43,413 nucleotides of DNA from Clostridia bacterium (GTDB taxonomy: Bacteria; Bacillota; Clostridia; Oscillospirales; CAG-272): contig JAFUIQ010000049.1 in assembly GCA_017468385.1 (NCBI GenBank), forward strand, positions 1 through 43,413. Direction: 5' to 3'. The stretch's first letter is position 1; each line of letters begins with the position of its first letter. The translations under genes were made by a program, and so were the position numbers. This document shows positions 5,223 through 34,670 of this stretch, piece by piece. The notes beneath the pieces are model-generated. The model saw nothing but the letters and a program-made list of their open reading frames with translations, was not told the DNA's origin and ran no database searches.

Positions 5223-5260
5223 TTGGCATATTACACAAATTCAAAAAAGAGGAAAAACGT

Positions 5261-6769
5261 ATGAAAAAGGCACCACAGCTTGATGCAAATGGAAAACGTA
5301 AGTTTGGCATTCGTGACAGCGTAGCTTATGCAGCCGGTGATCTCGGATGCAACATGAGTTTCGCTCTCAAGGGCACTATGGCGCTCTTCTGGACCCAGGT
5401 CATGGGCATGAGTGCATGGTACTCTCTGCTCCTCATCATCGTGCAGGTTTGGGACGCAATCAACGACCCGCTGATCGGCTCCATGATCGACGCAGACCGT
5501 CACAAGTACAAGAGAAACAAGTTCCTTCAGTACATCTGGTTCGGTTCCATCGGTTTGATCGTGGGCGGCGCATGCTGCTTCCTGCCGTTCCCCGGCGCTC
5601 CCGTATGGGCAAAGTTTATCATCTTCATCGCCGGATACGTAATTTGGGATGCGTTCTACACCATCGCAAACGTTCCCTACGGCTCTCTGCTTTCCCTGAT
5701 TTCCAATGAGCCCGCGGATAGAGCTTCTCTCTCCGCATGGCGTTCCATCGGTTCCATGGTCGGCAACATGCTTCCCATGGTTATCCTGCCGTTCCTGATC
5801 TATGACAAGGTTCCCGGCGCTGACGGTAAGATGGTGGACGTTCTGGACGGAAATATGGTCTTCATCGCCGCTCTCGTTATGGGCGTGCTTGGCTTCATCT
5901 GCTTCCAGTTCATGATCAAAAACACCGAAATCCGCGTGGATACCGAGACCAAGGTGAACGAAGATCAGCCCAAGTTCAACGTTTTCCAGGCGCTTGGCAA
6001 TTTCGTGAAGAACCGTCCCGCAGTCGGTGCTACTCTGGCCGCTATGGGCATGTTCATCGGTATGCAGGGCGCTGCTACCGCTGTTTCCGTTACCTTCCAG
6101 ATCTACTTCAAAAATGCAGAGATCTCGGGCATCGTTCAGTTGTTCTCGATGATTCCCATTCTCGTGTTCACGCCTCTTGCCCGTAAGATGGTTACCAAAT
6201 ACGGCAAAAAGGAATTGGCCGTTGTTGGCTCGCTCTGCTCCATCGTGGGTGCACTCGGCCTGTTTATTATCACCCCTGACAACACGGGCCTTGATCTGAT
6301 TATCTACATTCTTTGCCAGCTCGTTTACAGCCTTGGCCTTGGTGTTTACTCCACGGTTTCCTGGGCTATGATGGGTGACGCTATCGACTATAATGAGTGG
6401 AAAACCGGCCGTCGCGAAGAGGGCGTTGTATATTCTCTCCACTCCTTCTTCCGCAAACTGGCACAGGGCATCGGCCCTGCCGTTGCTCTGATCATCATGC
6501 AGGGCATGGGATATGTTAACAACGACATCAACGAGGCTGGCGAGGCGTACATCAACGTTGCCCTGCTTCCTTGGGAATTTGCTGTGGATCTGCGCGTCCT
6601 CGTTGCTATTCTGTTCCTCGTATCTGCCGTGATGCAGTTCGTTGGCCTTGGTCTTATCTACAACCTGGACAAGAAGACCCTTGCCAAAATGAACCACGAA
6701 CTCGGACGTGATATTGAGGCAGATAACGTTCCCGCCGTCACCGCTGAGAACAGCGACACCAACGCATAA
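5261..6769 (+). CDS. GPH-family glycoside/hexuronide:cation symporter
   Basis: Twelve-helix MFS-superfamily transporter of the glycoside-pentoside-hexuronide family, 502 residues. Family marks are the N-terminal YAAGDLGCNMSF, the loop WDAINDPLIGSMID, and the C-half LVYSLGLGVYSTVSWAMMGDAIDYNEW. It likely imports a glycoside or glucuronide with Na+ or H+ through the cytoplasmic membrane. A GAGG ribosome binding site sits 8 bp before the ATG. It is divergent from the uxu operon and followed by a strong terminator, with the GH2 glycosidase next; uptake of a uronic-acid-containing glycoside is the simplest reading. Exact substrate not determinable. Confidence 0.9.
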   Translation: MKKAPQLDANGKRKFGIRDSVAYAAGDLGCNMSFALKGTMALFWTQVMGMSAWYSLLLIIVQVWDAINDPLIGSMIDADRHKYKRNKFLQYIWFGSIGLIVGGACCFLPFPGAPVWAKFIIFIAGYVIWDAFYTIANVPYGSLLSLISNEPADRASLSAWRSIGSMVGNMLPMVILPFLIYDKVPGADGKMVDVLDGNMVFIAALVMGVLGFICFQFMIKNTEIRVDTETKVNEDQPKFNVFQALGNFVKNRPAVGATLAAMGMFIGMQGAATAVSVTFQIYFKNAEISGIVQLFSMIPILVFTPLARKMVTKYGKKELAVVGSLCSIVGALGLFIITPDNTGLDLIIYILCQLVYSLGLGVYSTVSWAMMGDAIDYNEWKTGRREEGVVYSLHSFFRKLAQGIGPAVALIIMQGMGYVNNDINEAGEAYINVALLPWEFAVDLRVLVAILFLVSAVMQFVGLGLIYNLDKKTLAKMNHELGRDIEADNVPAVTAENSDTNA

Positions 6770-6784
6770 TCGGTCCGTTTCTTC

Positions 6785-6817
6785 GGCGTCCGACGGCAAG
6801 CCGTCGGACGCCTTTTT
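6785..6817 (+). terminator. Rho-independent terminator after the GPH transporter
   Basis: Perfect 12-bp GC-rich stem (6785-6796 with 6801-6812, loop CAAG) followed by five T. Confidence 0.95.
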
Positions 6818-6867: not shown

Positions 6868-6899
6868 ACTCATGAAATCAATACAGAACGGAGATTCAT

Positions 6900-9146
6900 A
6901 TGAGAACCATTTATAATTTCAACGCGAAATGGGCATTCACCAAGATGGCAACGGAAATCCCCTCCGCCATCGATTCCAAATGGGATTTTGTCAATCTCCC
7001 CCACTCCTGGAACGCCATTGACGGCCAGGACGGCGGCAACGACTACTTCCGCGGCACGGCATATTACGCCAAGGCCCTGGACAAGATGGATCTGCCCACG
7101 GCAGACCGCTACTATCTGGAAATCCGCGGCGCCAACTCCTCCGCCGATGTATACCTGAACGGCAAGCATCTGGCTCATCACGACGGCGGCTACTCCACCT
7201 GGCGTGTGGACATCACCGACGCACTGGTTCGTGAGAATCTGTTTGTGATCGCGGTGGACAACAGTGCCAACGAGAAGGTATATCCCCAGATGGCGGACTT
7301 CACCTTCTACGGCGGTCTGTACCGTGACGTAAACATCATCTGTGTCAACGAATCCCACTTCGATCTGGATTACTACGGAGGCCCCGGCATCAAGGTAACG
7401 CCCGCTGTCTGCGGTAAGGATGCCAAGGTGGATGTGGAAGTCTTCCTGACCAACAAGAAGGAAAATCAGCGCATCCGCTACACCGTTTACGATGCGAATG
7501 AAAATGTGATCGCGGACGGAACCACCGATGAGACGAACATCACGCTGGATATCCCGAATGTGCATCTGTGGAACGGCCGCAAGGATCCGTACCTGTACTG
7601 CTGTGAGGCAGAACTGCTCTGCGGCGAGGATGTACTCGACAGCGTATGCACCCGCTTCGGCTGCCGCACCTTCCGGATCGATCCGGAAAACGGATTCATC
7701 CTCAATGGCGAGGAATATCCCCTGCGCGGTGTATCCCGCCATCAAGACAGATGGGGTATCGGTAATGCCCTGCTCCCCGAGCATCATGAGGAAGATATCG
7801 ATCTGATTTGCGAAGTGGGCGCTACCACCATCCGTCTGGCTCATTATCAGCACGATCAGCACTTCTACGATCTGTGCGATGAGCGCGGTCTGGTGATCTG
7901 GGCGGAGATTCCCTACATCTCCAAGCACATGCCCGGCGGCCGTGAGAACACCATCTCCCAGATGAAGGAACTGATCACCCAGAACTACAATCACCCCTCC
8001 ATCGTGGTATGGGGTCTGAGCAACGAAATCTCCATCGGCGGCAGTGATGAGGATCTGCTGGAAAATCACCGCATTTTGAACGATCTGTGCCACGAGATGG
8101 ATAAGACCCGTCTGACCACCATTGCGGCGGTTTCCCCCTGCAAGATGGACGATCCCTATCTGCAGATCCCGGACGTGGTTTCCTACAACCATTACTTCGG
8201 CTGGTACGGCGGCGATACTTCCATGAACGGTCCTTGGTTTGACAAGTTCCACGCCACCCATCCTACCATTCCGATCGGATGCTCCGAATACGGATGCGAG
8301 GCACTGAACTGGCACACCTCCAAGCCCACCCAGGGTGACTACACGGAAGAATATCAGGCATACTATCACGAGGAACTGATCAAGCAGTTCTTTACCAGAA
8401 AGTACATGTGGGCTACCCATGTATGGAATATGTTCGACTTCGGTGCGGACGCCCGCAGCGAGGGCGGCGAAAACGGACAGAACCACAAGGGTCTGATCAC
8501 CTTCGACCGCAAGTATAAGAAGGATTCCTTCTATGCGTACAAAGCATGGCTGAATCCGGAACCGATGATCCATCTGTGCGGCAAGCGCTATGTGGATCGG
8601 GTGGAAGATGTAACCAAGATCACCGTATACTCCAATCTGCCCGAGGTTGAATTGTTCGCCAACGGCGTAAGCCTGGGCAAGAAGACGGCGGAGGATCATT
8701 TCTTCTACTTCGATGTACCGAACGTAGGCGAGCAGACGCTGGTGGCCGTAGCCGGCAATCTGAAGGACGAGAGCAAGATCCGCAAGGTGGAAGTATTCAA
8801 CGAAGCCTACCGTCTGAAAGAGAAAAACGCCATTCTGAACTGGTTCGACATCACCGAGGTGGAAGGCCACTTCTCCCTGAACGACAAGATCAGCGACATC
8901 ATGGCCACCATGCAGGGCAAGATACTGTTCGGTGGGCTGATGATGAAGATGATGCCCAAGGGCAAGACCCAGGGAGCCGGTTTTGATATCGATCTGAAGA
9001 ACAATCCCGAGATGATGCAGATGATGGGCGGCTTCACGGTACTCCGTCTGTCCGGCATGATCGGCACCATGGGCGTCAACTTGACGAAGGAAGATCTTCT
9101 GGATCTGAACGCTAAGCTGAACAAGATCAAAAAGCCCAACAAATAA
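6900..9146 (+). CDS. Glycoside hydrolase family 2 (beta-galactosidase/beta-glucuronidase type)
   Basis: A 748-residue GH2 enzyme without a signal peptide, so cytosolic. Order: jelly-roll sugar-binding domain (to ~170), Ig-like domain (~170-270), TIM barrel (~270-560), a further beta domain, then an unusual ~110-residue tail. Acid/base E376 lies in WGLSNEIS and nucleophile E463 in CSEYGCEA. An N-x-K motif (N528-H-K530) followed by GLITFDRK resembles the carboxylate-binding motif of beta-glucuronidases, but similar sequence also occurs in GH2 beta-galactosidases, so it does not decide. The uronate pathway next door favours glucuronide cleavage. Start set by GGAG 6 bp before ATG. Confidence 0.88.
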   Translation: MRTIYNFNAKWAFTKMATEIPSAIDSKWDFVNLPHSWNAIDGQDGGNDYFRGTAYYAKALDKMDLPTADRYYLEIRGANSSADVYLNGKHLAHHDGGYSTWRVDITDALVRENLFVIAVDNSANEKVYPQMADFTFYGGLYRDVNIICVNESHFDLDYYGGPGIKVTPAVCGKDAKVDVEVFLTNKKENQRIRYTVYDANENVIADGTTDETNITLDIPNVHLWNGRKDPYLYCCEAELLCGEDVLDSVCTRFGCRTFRIDPENGFILNGEEYPLRGVSRHQDRWGIGNALLPEHHEEDIDLICEVGATTIRLAHYQHDQHFYDLCDERGLVIWAEIPYISKHMPGGRENTISQMKELITQNYNHPSIVVWGLSNEISIGGSDEDLLENHRILNDLCHEMDKTRLTTIAAVSPCKMDDPYLQIPDVVSYNHYFGWYGGDTSMNGPWFDKFHATHPTIPIGCSEYGCEALNWHTSKPTQGDYTEEYQAYYHEELIKQFFTRKYMWATHVWNMFDFGADARSEGGENGQNHKGLITFDRKYKKDSFYAYKAWLNPEPMIHLCGKRYVDRVEDVTKITVYSNLPEVELFANGVSLGKKTAEDHFFYFDVPNVGEQTLVAVAGNLKDESKIRKVEVFNEAYRLKEKNAILNWFDITEVEGHFSLNDKISDIMATMQGKILFGGLMMKMMPKGKTQGAGFDIDLKNNPEMMQMMGGFTVLRLSGMIGTMGVNLTKEDLLDLNAKLNKIKKPNK

Positions 9147-9154
9147 TGCATAAC

Positions 9155-9189
9155 AAAAATCCCCGGAGTAAAAACTCCGGGGATTTTTT
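9155..9189 (+). terminator. Bidirectional terminator between convergent genes
   Basis: Stem TCCCCGGAGT / ACTCCGGGGA (9160-9169 with 9174-9183) with A-tract before and T-tract after, so it can serve both the GH2 gene and the minus-strand membrane protein. Confidence 0.9.
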
Positions 9190-9217
9190 AGATTCGTATA
9201 TATTCCAGACACGGGAT

Positions 9218-9269
9218 GCAAGTGCACTTGCCAGTTTCACTGAAACTCAAACGAACGGCTTGGCAAGTG
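9218..9269. repeat. Nested inverted repeats
   Basis: Three overlapping palindromes: GCAAGTGCACTTGC (9218-9231, perfect 14 bp), AGTTTCA-C-TGAAACT (9233-9247), and CACTTGCCA / TGGCAAGTG (9225-9233 with 9261-9269) enclosing the second. They lie between the bidirectional terminator and the stop codon of the minus-strand gene. Confidence 0.6.
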
Positions 9270-9271
9270 AC

Positions 9272-10654
9272 TTAGTAATTCTGCTCCAGACGCTGATACA
9301 CATCCTCATAGGCGCCCACCATGGCACGGATGGCCATAGCCACCCAAATGACCGATACCACGAAACTGGCAATCCAGAACTCGGGATGATGGACGGACAC
9401 GGTGTACGATGCGATCTCCATAATGAGATATGCCGCGCCGCACACAGCCGCACCGATCACGCGGGACAGCACGCTGTTGTACAGTTCCTTGCGGCGTGCA
9501 TCGGCGCTGTACTGGGGTTTGTGTTCACTGCCAAGGATCCCTATGTAGGCGGTATGGGCTTTCACCGCTCGGCAGAACACCACAAACACCCACGCAAAAG
9601 ACGCCAGAATCAAGAAGAACTCCAGCATGCCGCAGAGGCGGACGGATGTGTACATCTTGGCCGCTTCCGTGAAATAATAGGAATCCTGTGCGGTGTACTC
9701 GCTGAAATAGGGGATCTGCACAAACAGATTGCCAATGGAGAAGCCGCCCGTGATCACGGAAAGGATCAATCCGGGAAGCGCTCCTTTATCGTAAGGCATC
9801 AAAATGAGGAAGGACAGAAACAAGAACACGGCCGGTATGATGTTGGGCAGCACGTTCAGTCCGTCCAAGGTAATCGTAATGGAGGACAGGGCGGCAAAAC
9901 CGATCAGAAACAGCACCTTCTTCATGCGGATAGCCGCCATCAGCCCCGGCTGCGAGGCCACGTTCTCCGCAAAATACCGTGCAGTGCCCTCCCGCAAGCC
10001 GGAATCCCGGCGCAGGCGTTTCACATATCCCGCGGCCTTTGTCAGCCACACGATGCCCACTATCAGCACGAGAAGTCCCAAAAGCACATACATCCACGGC
10101 CGACAGGCAACCAACGGAAGCTGCCAGCGGGCATCCCCGGACAGATCCTCCGCCAACTGGAGTGCGGTCAATTCGGGCAGAACGGCGGCCACCGTTTTCA
10201 GGAGGAAGAACAGGATGGTGAAGTTCTTCAGCCGCTCCGCACGCTCGATCTGCACAGTTACCGTGCCGCGGGGAGTGCTCTTTTTCTTATGAATCACATC
10301 ATAGATGGATTCGCAGTCCAATCGGGTGCCCACAGCGTATGCTCCTTCGAAAATTGCCGCAATGGCCGGCAGAGCATACATGGTTTCCAGCACCGCGAAG
10401 ATAAACACAAGCAGCAAAGTGAACGTATCGGAAGTGTACGGAAGGAACACCACCGACACCGTGCGGACTGCGGTGATCAATGCCAGCTTCCAGATCAGAT
10501 CCCGGGCCTGACGCAGCTGATCCGAGAGGAAAGACGTGCCGAACAGCCCGTGATAGATGAGCAGATATCCGATGAAATCGGGGAACACATCGACCACATT
10601 GATATTTGGATTAAACAGAAAGAATACTCCTGCCAATATGTAAGTTAAACCCAT
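9272..10654 (-). CDS. Multi-pass membrane protein of unknown function
   Basis: A 460-residue protein with about ten predicted hydrophobic segments and no recognised catalytic motif. Its N-terminus (MGLTYILAGVFFLFNP, then DVFPDFIGYLLIYHGL) resembles that of the 237-residue protein encoded just upstream (MGFGYLLIGYIITFLF, then FFADIIGSVLMMIGL), so the two look like diverged paralogues; the PDFIGY-type motif recurs in uncharacterised clostridial membrane proteins. Start set by AAAGGGG 6 bp before ATG; 11 bp separate it from the upstream gene. It is the last gene after secA on this strand. Function unknown; the secA linkage may be mere co-transcription. Confidence 0.75.
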   Translation of the reverse strand: MGLTYILAGVFFLFNPNINVVDVFPDFIGYLLIYHGLFGTSFLSDQLRQARDLIWKLALITAVRTVSVVFLPYTSDTFTLLLVFIFAVLETMYALPAIAAIFEGAYAVGTRLDCESIYDVIHKKKSTPRGTVTVQIERAERLKNFTILFFLLKTVAAVLPELTALQLAEDLSGDARWQLPLVACRPWMYVLLGLLVLIVGIVWLTKAAGYVKRLRRDSGLREGTARYFAENVASQPGLMAAIRMKKVLFLIGFAALSSITITLDGLNVLPNIIPAVFLFLSFLILMPYDKGALPGLILSVITGGFSIGNLFVQIPYFSEYTAQDSYYFTEAAKMYTSVRLCGMLEFFLILASFAWVFVVFCRAVKAHTAYIGILGSEHKPQYSADARRKELYNSVLSRVIGAAVCGAAYLIMEIASYTVSVHHPEFWIASFVVSVIWVAMAIRAMVGAYEDVYQRLEQNY

Positions 10655-10665
10655 ATGTATCCCCT

Positions 10666-11379
10666 TTACTTGCGTTTGTGATTCTTTTTTCGCTTGACGC
10701 GAAGATAGCCGGGCTCTTCTTCCCTGGCCTTCTCCGGCGTTTTCTTCCGCAGGAATGCGTTATCCATGACAGCATCCGTCTTTTCGTTGAGACGATTGAT
10801 CCACTCGTGCCTGGACGGGGTGCGCTCGCCGTGCTCCTGCCCCTTCAGGCAAATGCGGCAATAACAGGAATGGATCAGGAAAATGCTGTACAAGATGGCC
10901 GCCAGGCCATACAGGAACACACATAAGGCGGCGATATTGCCCACCGTATTGCCCAAAGCGGGGCCAATCAAGAGCACCGCCATATGGAACAGATAGTAGG
11001 TAACCACCAGAAAGATGCTCCGCTTAGCACGGGCCGATTCCTTTTCCAGCTCCACCTCCCCAGCCAGATAGTGAATTCCGGCAAAGATAAAGAACTGCAG
11101 AACCAGACCGACAGCGGCAATTCCTACCGCCAAAGCGGTTGCGAGGAAGCCTTCCCCCGTGATCACGCGGAGCATCATCAGAAGCGCCCGCGTGAAGCAG
11201 AGGAGCAAAAATACGATATCCACCTGCATGGCACGGAGGAAATTCTTGCCGTGCCCGGCCAGTTTGGACAGGCCGATCATCATAAGGACGGAGCCTATGA
11301 TATCCGCGAAGAAATAGACATTGGAAAGAGAGAACAAAAATGTTATGATATATCCGATGAGCAGATAACCGAATCCCAT
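10666..11379 (-). CDS. Membrane protein of unknown function with basic tail
   Basis: A 237-residue protein with about six hydrophobic segments in the first 175 residues and a highly charged cytosolic tail ending in VKRKKNHKRK. A Cys-rich patch HSCYCRIC occurs near the last membrane segment. The first ~50 residues match the pattern of the next gene downstream (both MGxxYxLxG and DxIGxxLxxxGL), suggesting an ancient duplication. It begins 42 bp after the secA stop with GAGG 7 bp before the ATG and is probably co-transcribed with secA. No function can be assigned. Confidence 0.75.
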   Translation of the reverse strand: MGFGYLLIGYIITFLFSLSNVYFFADIIGSVLMMIGLSKLAGHGKNFLRAMQVDIVFLLLCFTRALLMMLRVITGEGFLATALAVGIAAVGLVLQFFIFAGIHYLAGEVELEKESARAKRSIFLVVTYYLFHMAVLLIGPALGNTVGNIAALCVFLYGLAAILYSIFLIHSCYCRICLKGQEHGERTPSRHEWINRLNEKTDAVMDNAFLRKKTPEKAREEEPGYLRVKRKKNHKRK

Positions 11380-11421
11380 GGGATAGCCTCACCGCCCTTC
11401 TTATGGGATGAATTTGCGGGA

Positions 11422-11994
11422 TCAGTCGCCGCTCGGGGCGCTGTCATCTCGTCCGCAGCATTTTTTATACTTTTTGCCGCTGCCGCAGGGGCAGGGATCG
11501 TTTCGTCCCACCTTGGGTCCCTTATTCACGACAGGACGGTTGGGCATCATGGCCGCCGGCTTGCCGGGAGCGGCAACCGGTCCTACGGGACGGCGCATAG
11601 GGGCCGCGCCGACGCGCGGTCCGGTACCGGATTCCTTGATGACCTGTACGCGCTGTACATTCTGGGGCTTGGGAACGATGGAGAGCATCATACGGACGGT
11701 GGCGTCACGGATTTCTGTGATCATTTCGTCAAACAGATCCGCGCCCTGGATGCGGTATTCGCTGATGGGATTACGCTGTGCGTAGGCCTGCAGGCCGATG
11801 CTTTCCATCAGGCTATCCATGGCTTCCAGATGATCCATCCACTTCTGGTCCACGTTGCGGAGCAGAACGACGCGCTCCACCTCGCGGAACTGTTCCTCGC
11901 CGAACATTCTCTCCTTGAACTCGTACAGTTTTTCCGCACGGTCAAAAAGTTCGGCGCGGACGGCCTCCCGCACTTCGGCGGGCGTGCCGGTCAT
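11422..11994 (-). CDS. secA: SecA, C-terminal portion after an in-frame TGA
   Basis: This is the C-terminal fifth of SecA, in the same frame as the upstream part and separated from it only by the TGA at 12016-12018 and seven further codons (SDDDFKD). It holds the helical scaffold and two-helix-finger region ([18 protein letters not shown], then [10 protein letters not shown]) and the zinc-binding tail [14 protein letters not shown] that contacts SecB or phospholipid in other bacteria. The listed ATG (11994) is only the first one after the TGA; AAGGA sits 1-2 bp before it, too close for an efficient ribosome binding site. True SecA needs this part fused to the motor, so it is best read with the upstream piece as one gene of about 934 codons. 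Confidence 0.85.
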
Positions 11995-12015
11995 ATCCTT
12001 GAAATCGTCATCGCT

Positions 12016-14226
12016 TCACAGAAGGCCGCGGTACTTGCCGCGCAGGCCATCCATATCCCACAGGGAGATATCGTCCTCGTGGAGATACTGATCCACCGCA
12101 TCGCTGATGGTATCGTGCATCATGGACTGGATCTTCTCCTGCATACTGCCGCCATCCAGAACCGCGCCGCGTTCCTTATAGATCAGGGTACGCTGCTGAT
12201 TCATCACGTCGTCGTAGGCAAGGACGTTCTTACGGCGCTCGAAGTTGTTATCCTCCAGACGCTTCTGGGCACTCTCAATGGAGCCGGACAGGATCTTGGC
12301 ATCGATGGGCTCATCGTCGCCCAGGCCGAGGCGATCCACCATGCCGATGATGCGCTCACTGCCGAACAGACGCATCAGATCGTCCTCCAGAGAGAGGAAG
12401 AAACGGGATTCGCCCGGGTCACCCTGACGGCCGGAACGGCCGCGAAGCTGGTTGTCGATACGGCGGCTTTCGTGCCGTTCCGTACCGATGACGAACAGAC
12501 CGCCTGCGGCGCAGACCTTCTCTGCCTCCGGCTTGATCTGCTCCTGGAATTTCTTATAGAGCTCCCGGTACACTTCCCGTGCGGCCATAGCCTCTTCGCT
12601 GATGGACTGGGAGGAACCGGTAGCGAGGGCGATCACGTCCTCTTCGTATCCGCGATTGCGCATTTCCGCCTTCGCCAGATACTCGGCGTTACCGCCCAGC
12701 AGGATATCCGTACCACGGCCCGCCATGTTGGTGGAGATAGTGACGGCACCCAATTTACCGGCCTGAGCCACGATATCTGCCTCACGCTCATGGAATTTCG
12801 CATTGAGCACGGTATGCTTGATGCCGTTCATCTTCAGTTTGTGAGAGAGTTCCTCGGATTTTTCGATGGAAACCGTACCGACGAGGACAGGCTGTCCCTT
12901 CTCGTGGCACTTCTTGATTTGGGCGATGATGGCGTTATCTTTTCCCTTTTTGGATTTGTACACCACGTCGGAGTGATCCGTACGGATCATGGGCTTATTG
13001 GTGGGCACCTCCACCACGTCCAGATTGTAGATCTCCCGGAACTCGTTTTCCTCGGACAGTGCCGTACCGGTCATACCGGACAGCTTGCTGTACATACGGA
13101 AATAGTTCTGGAAGGTGATGGTGGCAACGGTGCGGTTCTCCTTCTGAATCTCCACCCGCTCCTTGGCCTCAATGGCCTGATGCAGACCGTCGGAGAAGCG
13201 GCGGCCGGGCATAATACGGCCCGTAAAGGAATCGACAATCAGGACCTCATCGTCCTTGACCACGTAGTCGATATCCCGTTTCATGATGCCGTAGGCACGC
13301 ATGGCCTGATAGATGTGGTGGGAAATCTCTGCATTTTCCGGATCGGAGAAGTTTTCAATCTCAAAGAATTTCTCCGCCTTGGCGATACCGGATGCGGTCA
13401 TGGTGGTGCTGCGTGCTTTTTCGTCCACGATATAATCCGCGGCGATGTCGTCGTGATCTTCCTTGGCATCCAGTTCCTTAATGACAAACTTGGACAGCGT
13501 GCGCACGAACTTGTCCGCCCGGTCGTAGAGCTCATCGATCTTCTCACCGGCGCCGGAAATGATCAGAGGGGTACGCGCCTCATCGATAAGGATGGAGTCC
13601 ACCTCGTCCACGATGGCGAAGTTGTGGCCCCGCTGCACCTGATTCTCTTTATAAAGCGCCATGTTATCGCGCAGGTAGTCGAAGCCGAATTCGTTATTGG
13701 TACCGTAGGTGATGTCGCACCGGTACGCATACTGCTTCTGCATACGGTTCTGGTCATGGATCACGAGGCCCGTGGTCAGGCCCAGGAACTCATGGATACG
13801 TCCCATTTCCTCACAGCCCAGCCGTGCCAGATATTCGTTGACGGTAACGACGTGAACGCCCTTACCGGAAAGTGCATTCAGATAGGACGGCAAGGTAGCC
13901 ACCAGGGTCTTACCCTCACCGGTTTTCATTTCCGCCACACGGCCCTGATGCAGAAGGATGCCGCACAGCACCTGCACGTCAAAGGGACGCTTGCCCAGCA
14001 CGCGGTCTGCCGCCTCTCGCACGAGGGCGTAGGCATCCGGCAAAACGGAATCCAGCGTAGCACCGTCTGCGATGCTCCGCTTGAATTTGGCGGTCACTTC
14101 CGCCATTTCCGCGTCGGACAGGCGGCGGTACTGCTCCGCCAGATTATTGATCTGCGTAAGAGTGGGGCGAATTTTCTTGATCTGATGATCGCTGTATGTT
14201 CCAAACAGTTTGGTAATGAAACTCAT
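12016..14226 (-). CDS. secA: Preprotein translocase ATPase SecA, N-terminal 736 residues, ending at a premature TGA
   Basis: SecA drives ATP-dependent export through SecYEG. This part has the typical start [21 protein letters not shown], Walker [10 protein letters not shown] (residues 99-107), the [19 protein letters not shown] block near 205, the cross-linking domain, and the second nucleotide-binding domain with [10 protein letters not shown] and [12 protein letters not shown]. It stops after [14 protein letters not shown], inside the helical wing region, where homologues continue without a break. The frame continues downstream with clear SecA sequence. An upstream ATG extension to 14265 exists, but family comparison supports 14226; GGAGG lies 15 bp upstream, a rather long spacing. 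Consequence of the TGA is discussed in the findings. Confidence 0.93.
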
Positions 14227-14299
14227 GATTGCCGATGGCATCCTCCCGGGACGCCGTCCTCTCATAAAGATTTTTTGTGATATAAATTCTCGTTGGCCA

Positions 14300-21388: not shown

Positions 21389-21425
21389 GTAAATACATAC
21401 GATCCTTTCACACAGCGAGGTACAT

Positions 21426-22283
21426 ATGGAACTGCTTCAGCTCCGCTATTTTTACGAAAGCGCACGAAACGAAAATTTCACCAAAGCCGCCGAGAAATAT
21501 ATGGTCCCCATCTCCTCCGTCTCCGCGTCGGTCCGACGGTTGGAAAAGGAATTGGGATGCAAACTGTTTGACCGATCCTGCAACCGGATCACGCTGAACC
21601 AAAACGGAAAGCGGCTGCAGCAGTCCCTTTCCTCCATTTTCAACGAATTGGACAGCGTGGTGGATGCGCTGAGCACGCCGGATACGGACAATCGGGAGAT
21701 CAAAATGCTGGTGCGCGCCATGCGAAACCACATCACCGATTACATCATCGAGTTCAACCGGAAGCATCCCCACACCGCCTTCAAGACGGTGTTCGATTTC
21801 GGGGAGACGGCGCTGGAGGATTACGACATCATCATCGATGAAAAAACGGATACCTATCCGGGGTACGAGGGATTTGAGCTGTTCAACATGCGCCTGCGGC
21901 TGCGGGTAGCGGAAAACAGTCCTCTGCTGGGGCGGAAACTGAGTCTGAAGCAATTGTACAACCAGCCGTTTGTATCCTTGAGTGAGAGCAGTAACATGCA
22001 CAAAATTCTGATGGCGTCCTGCAAGCAGGCGGGATTTGTGCCCAACGTGGTGGCGCAGATCAACGATATCGAATGTTACGAGAAGCTGATTGAATCCGGC
22101 ATCGGCATCGGCATCGGCCGCGAGAGCATGAGTTCCCATACCTTCCCCCGCATCCGTCCTCTGGATGTGGCGGATTTTGAGGAGCGGTACGTGGTGTATG
22201 TGTACTACAAGCATCACGAGAACTACGGCAACATGAAGCACTTCCTCAATTTTCTGGAGAAGCACGCCTATACCCATCTGTAA
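21426..22283 (+). CDS. LysR-family transcriptional regulator
   Basis: A 285-residue LysR protein. The winged helix-turn-helix occupies residues 1-60 (MELLQLRYFYESARNENFT, then VPISSVSASVRRLEKELG and LFDRS), and the rest is a periplasmic-binding-protein-like co-inducer domain. The second recognition-helix start (VPISSVSASV) is slightly unlike the usual QPALS. It is divergent from the OCD-family gene with 152 bp between start codons, the classic arrangement for a LysR regulator and its target. Co-inducer unknown. A GAGG ribosome binding site precedes the ATG. It may also act on the yitT operon, but no similar box is seen there. Confidence 0.92.
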   Translation: MELLQLRYFYESARNENFTKAAEKYMVPISSVSASVRRLEKELGCKLFDRSCNRITLNQNGKRLQQSLSSIFNELDSVVDALSTPDTDNREIKMLVRAMRNHITDYIIEFNRKHPHTAFKTVFDFGETALEDYDIIIDEKTDTYPGYEGFELFNMRLRLRVAENSPLLGRKLSLKQLYNQPFVSLSESSNMHKILMASCKQAGFVPNVVAQINDIECYEKLIESGIGIGIGRESMSSHTFPRIRPLDVADFEERYVVYVYYKHHENYGNMKHFLNFLEKHAYTHL

Positions 22284-22290
22284 AGAAACA

Positions 22291-22316
22291 GGGCTGCCGC
22301 ACAAAAGCGACAGCCC
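22291..22316. terminator. Hairpin between convergent LysR and isomerase genes
   Basis: GGGCTG / CAGCCC stem (22291-22296 with 22311-22316) extended by an inner GC pair; followed by TTATTGT on the plus strand and TGTTTCTTT on the minus strand. Probably a shared terminator, weak T-tract. Confidence 0.55.
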
Positions 22317-30242: not shown

Positions 30243-33200
30243 TCAGAACAAGGTTAGCTGATTGGTGGCGGTGAGGCCTTTCAGGACGCCATTGCGCTCC
30301 AGAATTTCCACGACCGTCTTGGATATACCCGCCTCCCGTTTCAGCGCCTCAATGGAGTAGATCTCCTTCTCGTCGCGGCAGCGCATGATGTTATCCGCCG
30401 CGGTCTCGCCCAAGCCCGGCAGGGAGCCGAAGGGCAAGCGGATCTTTCCGTTTTCCGGCACAAATTTGCGGGCGTGGGATTTCTGCAGATCCACGGGAAG
30501 GAAGGAGAATCCCCGCTGATAATACTCATTGACCAGCATCAGGGCGTTGTAGATTTCCACATCCTTCTGGAGCAGTTCGTTCTTCCGCTTTTTCAGATCC
30601 ATCATGGTATCGTACACGTATTTCTTGCCGCGCATGACGATCTCGGAATCGAATCCGCCGGGTGCGGCAGAGAAATAGCCGGCGTAGAACTCCACGGGAT
30701 AGTAGACCTTATACCACATGAGCCGCAAGGCATCGATGGCGTAGGCCGCCGCGTGGGCCTTGGGGAACATGTAGCGGATCTTCTGAAGCGAATCGATATA
30801 CCACTGGGGCACGCCCTGCTCTACCATGGTGGACATCATATCCTCGGGGATCTTGGATCCCTTTTTGTTTTTGCGGACGAACTCCATGATTTTGAAGGCT
30901 TTGCCTTTTTCGACACCGTATTTCTGGATCAGCGTCAGCATGATGTCGTCACGGCACCCGATTACCTGGGAGACGGTGCAAACGCCGTCCCGGATCAGAT
31001 CCTGGGCATTGCCCACCCACATTCCCGTTCCGTGGGTCAGCCCCTCAATCTGCAAAAGATCCGCGAAATTCTTGGGCTGTGCCTCCATGAGAATATCGCG
31101 GCTCAGCTTGGTGCCCATCTCGGGCAAGCCGAGGGTGGATGTCTTGGAATCGATCTGCTCCGGGGACACGCCGATAGGCTCCGTGGAAGTGAATCCCTGA
31201 TAGGTGATGGGATCCGTCAGGGGCACATCCAGGATATTGATGCCGGAGAACTCCTCCATCCGCTTGTACTTGGTGGGAATATCGTGTCCGAGGATATCCA
31301 GCTTGAGGATGGTATCATGTAGATATGTAAAGGCGAAATGAGTGGTAATGATATCAGAATCTGCCTTGTCCGCGGGATGCTGGATGGGGGTAAAGTCGTA
31401 GATATCGTACTCCTGGGGCACGACGATGATGCCGCCGGGGTGCTGACCCGTGGTACGCTTGGTGCCAAGGCATCCGTTGATCAAACGTTCCATCTCCGCC
31501 CGATTGACGGAGATGCCCTTATCCTCCAGGAAGTGAGCCGTATAGCCGAAGGCGGTCTTATCCGCCAGGGTACCGATGGTGCCGGCCTTGAAGGCCTTTC
31601 CCGCACCGAACAGCACTTCCGTGAACTTATGGGCATCCGCCTGCACGTCGCCGGAGAAGTTCAGATCGATATCCGGCGTTTTATCGCCGTAGAAGCCGAG
31701 GAAGGTCTCAAAGGGGATATCGTGGCCGTCCCGGACCATATCCGTGCCGCACGCGGGGCAATCCTTCGGCGGCAGATCGAATCCGGAGCCTACGGAGCCG
31801 TCCTCCACGAATTCCGTATGGCGGCAATGGGGACAGCGGTAGTGGGGCGGCAGGGGATTGACTCGGGTGATTCCCGCCATGGTGGCGGCGAAGGAAGATC
31901 CCACAGAGCCGCGGGAGCCCACCTGATAGCCCTTGGATTCGCTGTTTTCCACCAGCTTGCGGGCAATGATGTACATGATGGCGAATCCGTTTTTGATGAT
32001 GGAATCCAACTCACGGGACAGCCGGGCAGAGACCTGCTCCGGCAGGGGATCGCCGTAGAGGGATTTCGCCAGTTCCCAGCACTTACTCGTCAACTCTTCC
32101 TCCGCGCCGTCGATGTGGGGCGGGTAGTTTCCCTCGGGGATGGGGCGGACCTTCTCGATCATATCGGAAATCTTTTTAGGATTCTCGATGACGATTTCCC
32201 GGGCGGTTTCGGGATCCAGATAATCAAACTCAGCAAGCATTTCCTCCGTGGTGCGGAAATACAACTCCGTGATCTTATCCGCGTCGGAGAACTTCATACC
32301 GGAGAGGATGATGCGTCGGAAAATCTCGTCCTCCGGATCCAGATAGTGAGCATCGCAGGTAGCCACCACCGGCTTGCCCAACTTTTTGCCCAGCTCGATG
32401 ATTTTGCGGTTCAGATCCTGCAGCGCGGCGTCGTCCGTCACCTTTCCCTGCTCCACCAGGAAGCGGTTGTTGGAAATAGGCTGTACCTCCAGGTAATCGT
32501 AGAAGGAGGCGATCTCCTCCAACTCATTCTGGGGTTTGCCCTCCAGGACCGCAGTGAACAGCTCTCCCGCCTCGCAGGCGGAGCCGATGATGAGTCCCTC
32601 TCTCAGCTCCATCAGGCGGGTTTTGGGGATGCGGGGATTGCGTCGGTAGTATTTGAGGAAGGAATCGGATACCAGACGGTACAGATTCTTCAGTCCGACA
32701 GAGTTCTTCACCAGAATGATCTGGTGGTATGTTTTCAGCTTCAAGGGATCGGAGCGGCTGCTCATGGCGGTGTTCAAGGCATCCATGGTACGGATGCCCT
32801 CATCCGCCAGCTTGTCCACCATTTTCTGATAGATCATGGCCAGCATTTCCGCGTCGTCCGACGCACGGTGATGATTGAATTCGCCCAGTTTGAAATAGGC
32901 AGCCAGGGTGTCCAGTTTGTGCTTATTCAGTTCCGGATTCACATAGCGGGACATGGCCACCGTGTCCAGATAGCCGTTGGTAAAGGGGATCCCCTGATCC
33001 TCGGCGGCTTTGCGGATGAAGCTGATATCAAATCCCGCGTTGTGGGCCACCAGCATCCGATCGCCCACGAAGGCCAGAAATTCCGGCAGAACTTCCTCGA
33101 TAGGACGTTCATTTTTCACCATTTCGTCGGTGATGCCGGTCAGACGGACAATCTCCTCCGGGATCTCCACCCCGGGATTGACCAGCGAATTGTATACTTC

Positions 33201-34670
33201 CAGTACCTTTCCGCCCTTGGCGCGGACAGCACCGATTTCGGTGATCTTGCAGGTCTGGGGAGACAGGCCGGTGGTCTCGATATCGAACACCACCACTTCC
33301 TCCTGCAGATCGGACACGCCCTTGCCGTACACCGCACGGGCGGTATCGTCCACAAAATAGGCCTCCACGCCATAGATGACCTTCATGCCCAGCTTTTCCG
33401 CTTTGAGCATGGCGGTGGGGAATGCCTGCAGATTGCCGTGATCCGTGATCGCCACGGCTTCGTGTCCCCAACGATGGGCGGTTTCCACCACTTCCTCCGG
33501 CTTGGCCGTGGCATCCATGGCAGACTGGCAGGTATGCAGATGCAACTCGATCCGTTTCTCGGAGGCGTTGTCCTCCCGCTTGATCTGCTTGACCTTCTGC
33601 ACATCGGCATACTGCAGATAGATCTCACCGTCGAACTTGTCCACCTTCACGTCCCCGCGGACAGCGATGGCGGATCCGGTTTTGAAGATGCCGAACAGTT
33701 CGTCCTGTGCATCCTCGGTGATTTGCGTTTTGATAAAAATCGACGAATCCCGGTCGGTCAGACCGATGTTGACCGCCAATTTGCTGCTGTTCCGGATCTC
33801 CTTGGTGGTAGAGCCGAACACAGTACCGAGGACGGTAATGCTTTTATCGGTAGCCTTGAGGGAGCGGATCGGCACGGGATTTTCCACCACAAAGCCGTCG
33901 CCCACCAACACCTCGGGCGCAGACACGTCGAACTTCATGCGGCCGCTCCGGATGACGCCCTCGCCAATAACGGCGGATTCCGCACTTCCCTCAAAGAGGG
34001 AGTTTACACGGGTGAGATTGGGCTTGTCCACCGATGCATTTCCATCGGCGGGAGCGGCGGCTTCTGCCGCACGGGCCGCAGCTACGGCGGCCTGGCGGGC
34101 GGGAATCTGGGCGGCTTCTTCCCGAAGCCACGCTTCCCTGGCCGCTTCGTAATCCTTATAATGATCGGCGTAATCGGCGGCCTGCACGATCTTTACCGTG
34201 CGCTCCACGCCGAACTCACTGCGGATGATGCCTGTCAGGATCTCGCCGGTTTTGGCCAGATCCAGCAGATTGATCCCGCCCTGCAGAAAGGGAATGCGGA
34301 TCTCGATGGTATCGCCGTTTTCCACGATTTCATACCGGTCAAAAAAGCCGTTGACCACACTGCCGATGCGCTTGGCCTCGCACAGCACCTCATCCATATA
34401 CGATGTGGTAAACAACTCAGAGGGATAATGGGGAAAGAGGCGAATGGAATTCTGGCCGTAGAACTCCGTCAGCGCCGCCTCCGTTTCATACAGAACGGCT
34501 TTGCGGAACAGTTTGGGAAGAGTGAAGTTGACCTCCACCATCTTGAGTTCCTGGGCGGCGCGGATACGCACATTTTCCGCCAAGGCAAACAACTCACGCT
34601 GTGCCCGGGACACGGGCATATAGCGTGAGAAGTATTCACCAAGTGTTCTTTTTTTCTTTTCTACAGCCAT
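30243..34670 (-). CDS. polC: DNA polymerase III alpha subunit, PolC type
   Basis: The replicative polymerase of low-GC Gram-positives, 1475 residues (B. subtilis PolC 1437). Order: N-terminal domain (1-~180), an Ala-rich linker (~190-215), OB fold (~275-370), PHP domain starting ELHLHT near 375 and interrupted by the DEDD proofreading exonuclease (VFDIETTG near 461; VAHNAGFDISF), zinc-binding CPHC and CPAC pairs near 945 and 972, then catalytic palm PDIDLNF near 997, fingers and a C-terminal helix-hairpin-helix region (LPGLGETAADNIM). The start overlaps the ispG stop by 1 bp (TAATG). It is the last gene of the pyrH-to-polC operon. Confidence 0.97.
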   Translation of the reverse strand: MAVEKKKRTLGEYFSRYMPVSRAQRELFALAENVRIRAAQELKMVEVNFTLPKLFRKAVLYETEAALTEFYGQNSIRLFPHYPSELFTTSYMDEVLCEAKRIGSVVNGFFDRYEIVENGDTIEIRIPFLQGGINLLDLAKTGEILTGIIRSEFGVERTVKIVQAADYADHYKDYEAAREAWLREEAAQIPARQAAVAAARAAEAAAPADGNASVDKPNLTRVNSLFEGSAESAVIGEGVIRSGRMKFDVSAPEVLVGDGFVVENPVPIRSLKATDKSITVLGTVFGSTTKEIRNSSKLAVNIGLTDRDSSIFIKTQITEDAQDELFGIFKTGSAIAVRGDVKVDKFDGEIYLQYADVQKVKQIKREDNASEKRIELHLHTCQSAMDATAKPEEVVETAHRWGHEAVAITDHGNLQAFPTAMLKAEKLGMKVIYGVEAYFVDDTARAVYGKGVSDLQEEVVVFDIETTGLSPQTCKITEIGAVRAKGGKVLEVYNSLVNPGVEIPEEIVRLTGITDEMVKNERPIEEVLPEFLAFVGDRMLVAHNAGFDISFIRKAAEDQGIPFTNGYLDTVAMSRYVNPELNKHKLDTLAAYFKLGEFNHHRASDDAEMLAMIYQKMVDKLADEGIRTMDALNTAMSSRSDPLKLKTYHQIILVKNSVGLKNLYRLVSDSFLKYYRRNPRIPKTRLMELREGLIIGSACEAGELFTAVLEGKPQNELEEIASFYDYLEVQPISNNRFLVEQGKVTDDAALQDLNRKIIELGKKLGKPVVATCDAHYLDPEDEIFRRIILSGMKFSDADKITELYFRTTEEMLAEFDYLDPETAREIVIENPKKISDMIEKVRPIPEGNYPPHIDGAEEELTSKCWELAKSLYGDPLPEQVSARLSRELDSIIKNGFAIMYIIARKLVENSESKGYQVGSRGSVGSSFAATMAGITRVNPLPPHYRCPHCRHTEFVEDGSVGSGFDLPPKDCPACGTDMVRDGHDIPFETFLGFYGDKTPDIDLNFSGDVQADAHKFTEVLFGAGKAFKAGTIGTLADKTAFGYTAHFLEDKGISVNRAEMERLINGCLGTKRTTGQHPGGIIVVPQEYDIYDFTPIQHPADKADSDIITTHFAFTYLHDTILKLDILGHDIPTKYKRMEEFSGINILDVPLTDPITYQGFTSTEPIGVSPEQIDSKTSTLGLPEMGTKLSRDILMEAQPKNFADLLQIEGLTHGTGMWVGNAQDLIRDGVCTVSQVIGCRDDIMLTLIQKYGVEKGKAFKIMEFVRKNKKGSKIPEDMMSTMVEQGVPQWYIDSLQKIRYMFPKAHAAAYAIDALRLMWYKVYYPVEFYAGYFSAAPGGFDSEIVMRGKKYVYDTMMDLKKRKNELLQKDVEIYNALMLVNEYYQRGFSFLPVDLQKSHARKFVPENGKIRLPFGSLPGLGETAADNIMRCRDEKEIYSIEALKREAGISKTVVEILERNGVLKGLTATNQLTLF

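Follow-up and report, generated by a model that had tools for sequence, protein, structure and literature searches.

The interrupted secA locus

The window, i.e. the whole stretch of DNA that was analysed (positions 1-43413 of contig 49; 43,413 nucleotides), belongs to a genome of 2.23 Mb in 62 contigs that is 93.6% complete, with 3.5% contamination. The nearest named relatives are Clostridia metagenome genomes, the best of them being a water-buffalo cecum genome at 71% identity. The window contains a secA gene that is interrupted by an in-frame TGA and has the following parts:

12019..14226, minus strand: secA before the TGA, 736 codons from ATG 14226, with Pfam and NCBIfam matches; nucleotide-binding domain, preprotein cross-linking domain and first half of the wing/scaffold domain
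12016..12018, minus strand: in-frame TGA; this wing/scaffold position is variable, and the congeners have Cys or Thr at it
11992..11994, minus strand: candidate restart ATG, in frame, 22 bases past the TGA
11422..12015, minus strand: secA after the TGA; remaining half of the wing/scaffold domain, then the SEC-C zinc tail

On the minus strand secA runs from 14226 to 11422 as a single continuous frame whose sole internal stop is TGA 12016-12018, with no indel. The frame is open on either side of the TGA, which is X750 in a 949-position reading, and the next stop, X948, is TGA 11422-11424. In Pfam the upstream piece matches SecA_DEAD, P-loop_SecA, SecA_PP_bind and positions 1-96 of the 200 of SecA_SW, and the downstream piece matches SecA_SW positions 102-198 and then SEC-C. 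As the two SecA_SW pieces are consecutive and lie in the same frame, they belong to a single gene that carries one stop, without an indel, which bears out the claim of an earlier sequence-only reading that a TGA splits secA here; its figure of 736 residues for the product is also correct, counted from ATG 14226. The DEAD motor, preprotein cross-linking, P-loop and wing/scaffold domains of a SecA are all present in one frame, although in the assembled sequence the TGA breaks what would otherwise be a single chain. The upstream region alone (12019-14265) scores 1072 bits with PRK12904 (cut-off 814), and the two-helix finger presumably lies in the part after the TGA. The surroundings of the TGA carry no sequence sign of low quality.

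Two membrane-protein genes after secA stay adjacent to it in all four of the congeners (G001-G004, genomes of the same genus), and the PLD-like gene before secA is near it in three of the four. This retention of neighbours indicates that the interrupted gene is the secA at its usual place. The two membrane-protein genes, which are putative and adjoin each other directly downstream of secA (9272-10654 and 10666-11379, both minus strand), have no Pfam or NCBIfam match, but the four congeners (39-55% identity) and a further genome, G027 (24-31%), have homologues of them after secA. prfB is located ∼6 kb from secA in G001 and ∼3 kb in G003, and here is on another contig (C1). Antisense to secA there is an open frame of 1098 codons (10984-14280, plus strand), and another of 1096 codons (31338-34628, plus strand) is antisense to the DNA polymerase III alpha gene; both of these long frames are probably the result of codon and base composition. 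The minus-strand open reading frames at 5231-6799, 6870-9227 and 21408-22304 are shadows of plus-strand genes, i.e. those for an MFS transporter, a glycoside hydrolase of family 2 and a LysR regulator.

secA is essential in bacteria. In this genome PF07517 gave one match over its cut-off, and the SecA protein and the 1,001 bases of DNA around the TGA site each found one match when used as queries. The only other PF07517 match, considered as a candidate second SecA, reached 19 bits, under the cut-off of 24.6. Rescue by a second secA, an option that the sequence-only reading had listed, thus found no candidate in the 93.6% complete genome with Pfam, protein or DNA queries. Elsewhere, the relative G036 has a second SecA-like gene (G036:C11:20476-22911, an 858-residue frame) in addition to its main secA.

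The stop and restart positions in relatives

We aligned 122 secA loci, i.e. that of this genome, 109 from relatives and 12 that were additionally fetched; the 121 other proteins are all distinct. Alignment with SecA of close relatives had been proposed in the sequence-only reading as a check, and at the TGA the congeners encode Cys in three cases (TGC in G001 and G004, TGT in G002) and Thr in one (ACT in G003). Cys is found in 14 of the 28 same-family loci (L004-L031), Thr in four, Ile, Phe or Val in two each and His, Leu or Arg in one each, with one gap. Over all 121 other loci Leu occurs 20 times, Cys 16 times and a gap eight times, with the rest spread over 16 other residues, and the position is therefore a variable one. 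None of the 121 other aligned loci has a stop before residue 900; this genome alone has one. Stops are listed inside the secA matches of several relatives, and when these loci were checked none lay before residue 900; in the relatives beyond the aligned loci the secA matches are listed without stops. A SecA protein search of 59 genomes, this one included, left two without a match and gave only a partial match in G016 (residues 645-942), which was considered as a possible split and rejected because the gene is cut by the end of its contig and so gives no evidence of one. The 27-base sequence surrounding the site, with one position allowed to vary, had no match in a scan of viral contigs.

These comparisons bear on the possibility that SecA is made in two pieces, i.e. 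that the 736-residue part forms a working translocase together with a 190-residue part whose translation restarts at ATG 11994. Domains are kept in both parts and there is an in-frame ATG shortly after the TGA with AAGGA upstream of it, but the AAGGA is only one base ahead of the ATG, which is too close for a usual ribosome-binding site (the sequence-only reading had rightly called this restart poor), and the split falls inside the wing/scaffold domain, between the two SecA_SW pieces. At the restart residue the congeners G001, G002, G003 and G004 have Ile, Leu, Ile and Thr respectively, although G004 has a GTG one codon ahead of it. Met is found there in 10 of the 121 other loci, all without a stop and including L033 from the nearest named relative; on this alignment Met at the restart position appears not to be rare, and there is no apparent sign of its use as a start. 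The marks of a split SecA, i.e. the same split in relatives together with a conserved restart, were not found: 0 of the 121 other loci are split, and Met stands at the restart residue in 10 of 121 and in none of the four congeners. Given the absence of a stop from all 121 loci and of the restart Met from the congeners, a two-piece SecA, which the sequence-only reading had listed as an option, is disfavoured, and we consider it very unlikely, although Met does occur at this residue in some relatives. A truncated SecA construct, lacking the C-terminal helical domains, has been described, in a report whose available part does not deal with two-piece function in cells (PMC5603524). A Staphylococcus epidermidis variant has a missense change in secA, and the part of that report available shows no stop in the gene (PMC10620731).

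Tests for machinery that would read UGA

Of the 26 Pfam-supported genes in the window (the secA part being left out), 13 end in TGA and 13 in TAA, and RF2 is present and intact (501.8 bits; cut-off 370). Together these observations contradict a changed genetic code, which the sequence-only reading had already judged unlikely. The SelB model had matches in all five genomes of the genus, with none of the five reaching the cut-off, and we infer that the best match (188 bits, in a 405-residue frame) is EF-Tu. The genome has 43 tRNA matches, with anticodons read by ARAGORN; these include tRNA-Trp(CCA) and tRNA-Cys(GCA) and none with a UCA anticodon. The tRNA-Sec model, with which 150 of 274 first-look candidates were scored, gave one match over its cut-off (48.5 vs 47 bits), which ARAGORN reads as tRNA-Ser(TGA), and all 11 of its matches coincide with matches of the general tRNA model. 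Hence the SelB and tRNA-Sec that a selenoprotein requires were not found in the 93.6% complete genome with that number of tRNA-Sec candidates scored, and the UGA suppressor tRNA suggested by the sequence-only reading did not appear either, there being neither a UCA anticodon among the 43 matches nor a selenocysteine tRNA. The RNA fold of the 81 bases around the TGA has a z-score of -0.13 against shuffles, in a general fold test that is not specific for SECIS elements, and no Rfam family reached its threshold in the window.

A real, very recent nonsense mutation fixed in the sampled strain could be tolerated if leaky reading of UGA by the near-cognate tRNA-Trp or tRNA-Cys yielded enough full-length SecA. 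Both of these tRNAs are present, a single SecA was found in the genome, the site accepts many residues and, as described below, constraint on the downstream part is intact. However, background leakage at UGA is usually low, at a few per cent, RF2 is present, and neither the fold near the TGA nor the Rfam search of the window gave anything remarkable; we therefore regard leaky reading as unlikely. Dedicated decoding is another route, in which the UGA would be read as selenocysteine or cysteine, by selenocysteine machinery or by an opal selC*-type tRNA-Cys, after a swap from Cys to UGA. selC* tRNA-Cys, some with UCA anticodons, are described in anaerobic bacteria including Firmicutes (PMC7609411), and Cys is the commonest residue at the site in same-family loci (14 of 28), but it is not conserved more widely (16 of the 121 other loci), SelB is below cut-off throughout the genus, the sole tRNA-Sec match over cut-off among the 150 of 274 candidates scored reads as a serine tRNA, none of the 43 tRNA matches in the 93.6% complete genome has a UCA anticodon, and half of the 26 genes end in TGA. 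Such decoding is, in our estimate, extremely improbable.

Constraint, assembly and the preferred explanation

Between this genome and the four congeners, dN/dS over residues 751-945 is 0.177, 0.142, 0.209 and 0.166, and in the six pairs without this genome it is 0.113-0.221, all of these values being rough since synonymous sites are near saturation. Before the TGA the values for all 10 pairs are 0.030-0.102, i.e. constraint is stronger there than after the TGA, and as this holds in all 10 pairs the weaker downstream constraint belongs to the gene in general rather than to this genome. Over 177 downstream positions, a count of the residues that occur in a single genome gives three here and one, nine, five and seven in the four congeners. 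Over residues 751-880 the nonsynonymous difference to three outgroups is 0.163-0.167 here vs 0.146-0.150 for G001; this slight excess counts against a reading of normal constraint, and it is small and comes from few sites. Overall, the downstream part appears to be about as constrained as in congeners, which suggests that it was translated until very recently, or still is, and that the stop is either very recent or not real. An old nonsense mutation was considered and is contradicted by the normal downstream constraint. The same result argues against the idea that this copy is a pseudogene in decay and that the true secA lies in an unassembled part of the genome: incompleteness (93.6%) leaves some room for this, but constraint is normal on either side of the TGA and the neighbouring genes match the secA locus of the congeners, i.e. 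the usual place, and we consider a pseudogene highly improbable.

We surveyed 538,784 bases (∼24% of the genome; the unique length is slightly less, as a redundant contig, C58, is included) with a codon model trained on 27 Pfam-supported genes, which detects in-frame stops and is blind to frameshifts. The survey held 825 stops flanked on both sides by 60 or more open codons, 12 of which passed the test for coding on both sides. The secA TGA tops these 12 by a clear margin, with scores of 0.52, 0.55 and 0.52 (for the last 60 codons before, the first 60 after and the first 20 after the stop), compared with 0.48, 0.48 and 0.33 for the next. The other 11, judged by eye, look like gene ends before the next start or shadow frames. 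In a leave-one-out estimate of sensitivity 6,521 of 7,525 eligible positions passed; a position counted as eligible (7,525 of 10,765) when it lay 60 codons or more from any gene end. The secA TGA is not a chance result, and the outcome of the survey gives no sign of general UGA reading or of general decay, making this TGA a one-off.

The assembly itself contains redundant sequence. Two contig ends (C18 and C32) share an exact overlap of 141 bases, and C58 (7,139 bases; C58:1-7139, L204) is wholly contained in C2:7391-14530 (L187) with one mismatch and one gap, ∼seven bases apart and between two tRNA genes; tRNA-His, tRNA-Arg and tRNA-Gly consequently appear twice. The overlap and the contained contig together indicate that redundant or variant sequence was kept in the assembly. 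De Bruijn short-read assemblers run with k=141 leave exact overlaps of this length, and such assemblies can retain low-coverage read errors and strain variants. In the congener G002, secA is cut at a contig end with an overlap of 47 residues, which would fit the same de Bruijn cause. The assembly is a draft, probably made from short metagenome reads.

We conclude that the TGA very probably reflects an erroneous base in the consensus or a minority allele represented there, and that the population would then have an ordinary one-piece SecA. A single-copy essential gene, constraint on both sides, an isolated stop and the absence of the decoding machinery from what was searched make this the best explanation, and the finding of one SecA, of no stop in the 121 other loci and of the strongest internal-stop candidate in the survey also count for it. 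The single-base oddity would stem from an error at this base or from the assembler having picked a minority allele, rare or dead; the reads, or most cells, would carry a sense codon, and the living population would most likely make one full-length SecA from this gene, as congeners do. The TGA is therefore most likely not a working feature of the organism. Against an error stand the surroundings of the TGA, free of any mark of low quality as noted above, and the survey, which, with a single such case in roughly a quarter of the genome, suggests that errors of this kind are uncommon here, so that a one-off is needed and generally poor sequence is not the cause. From the options of the sequence-only reading an error, or a very recent or minority allele, remains; a second SecA and a suppressor were not found in the 93.6% complete genome, and a changed code and an old nonsense mutation are contradicted. 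As matters most likely stand, the locus matters only as a warning: an automatic annotation would give this genome two partial genes, or no SecA at all. It is decidedly unlikely that the TGA is real and fixed, with SecA in two pieces or with UGA read efficiently without the recoding machinery looked for; if it were, this essential single-copy translocase ATPase, although interrupted, would demonstrate either that SecA can work in two parts or that a single UGA can be decoded efficiently with no dedicated machinery.

The locus can be compared with three known systems. It resembles opal decoding by selC* tRNA-Cys(UCA) in having UGA where close relatives have Cys and in the occurrence of that system in anaerobic bacteria including Firmicutes (PMC7609411), but neither such a tRNA nor SelB was found in this genome. 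Canonical SecA (PRK12904, TIGR00963) is matched by SecA domains in order in one frame, by an upstream part that alone exceeds the cut-offs of both of these equivalog models, and by a downstream part with the end of the wing/scaffold domain and SEC-C; the difference is one TGA within the wing/scaffold domain. The third system is the sporadic nonsense codon of draft metagenome-assembled genomes, which is generally familiar; our literature search for stop codons that arise as errors of metagenome assembly returned no matching paper. The case here differs in that an error or minority allele is deduced from the consensus sequence, and it is similar in that the stop is isolated, the residue variable, the gene essential, single-copy and still constrained, and the draft assembly carries a redundant contig.
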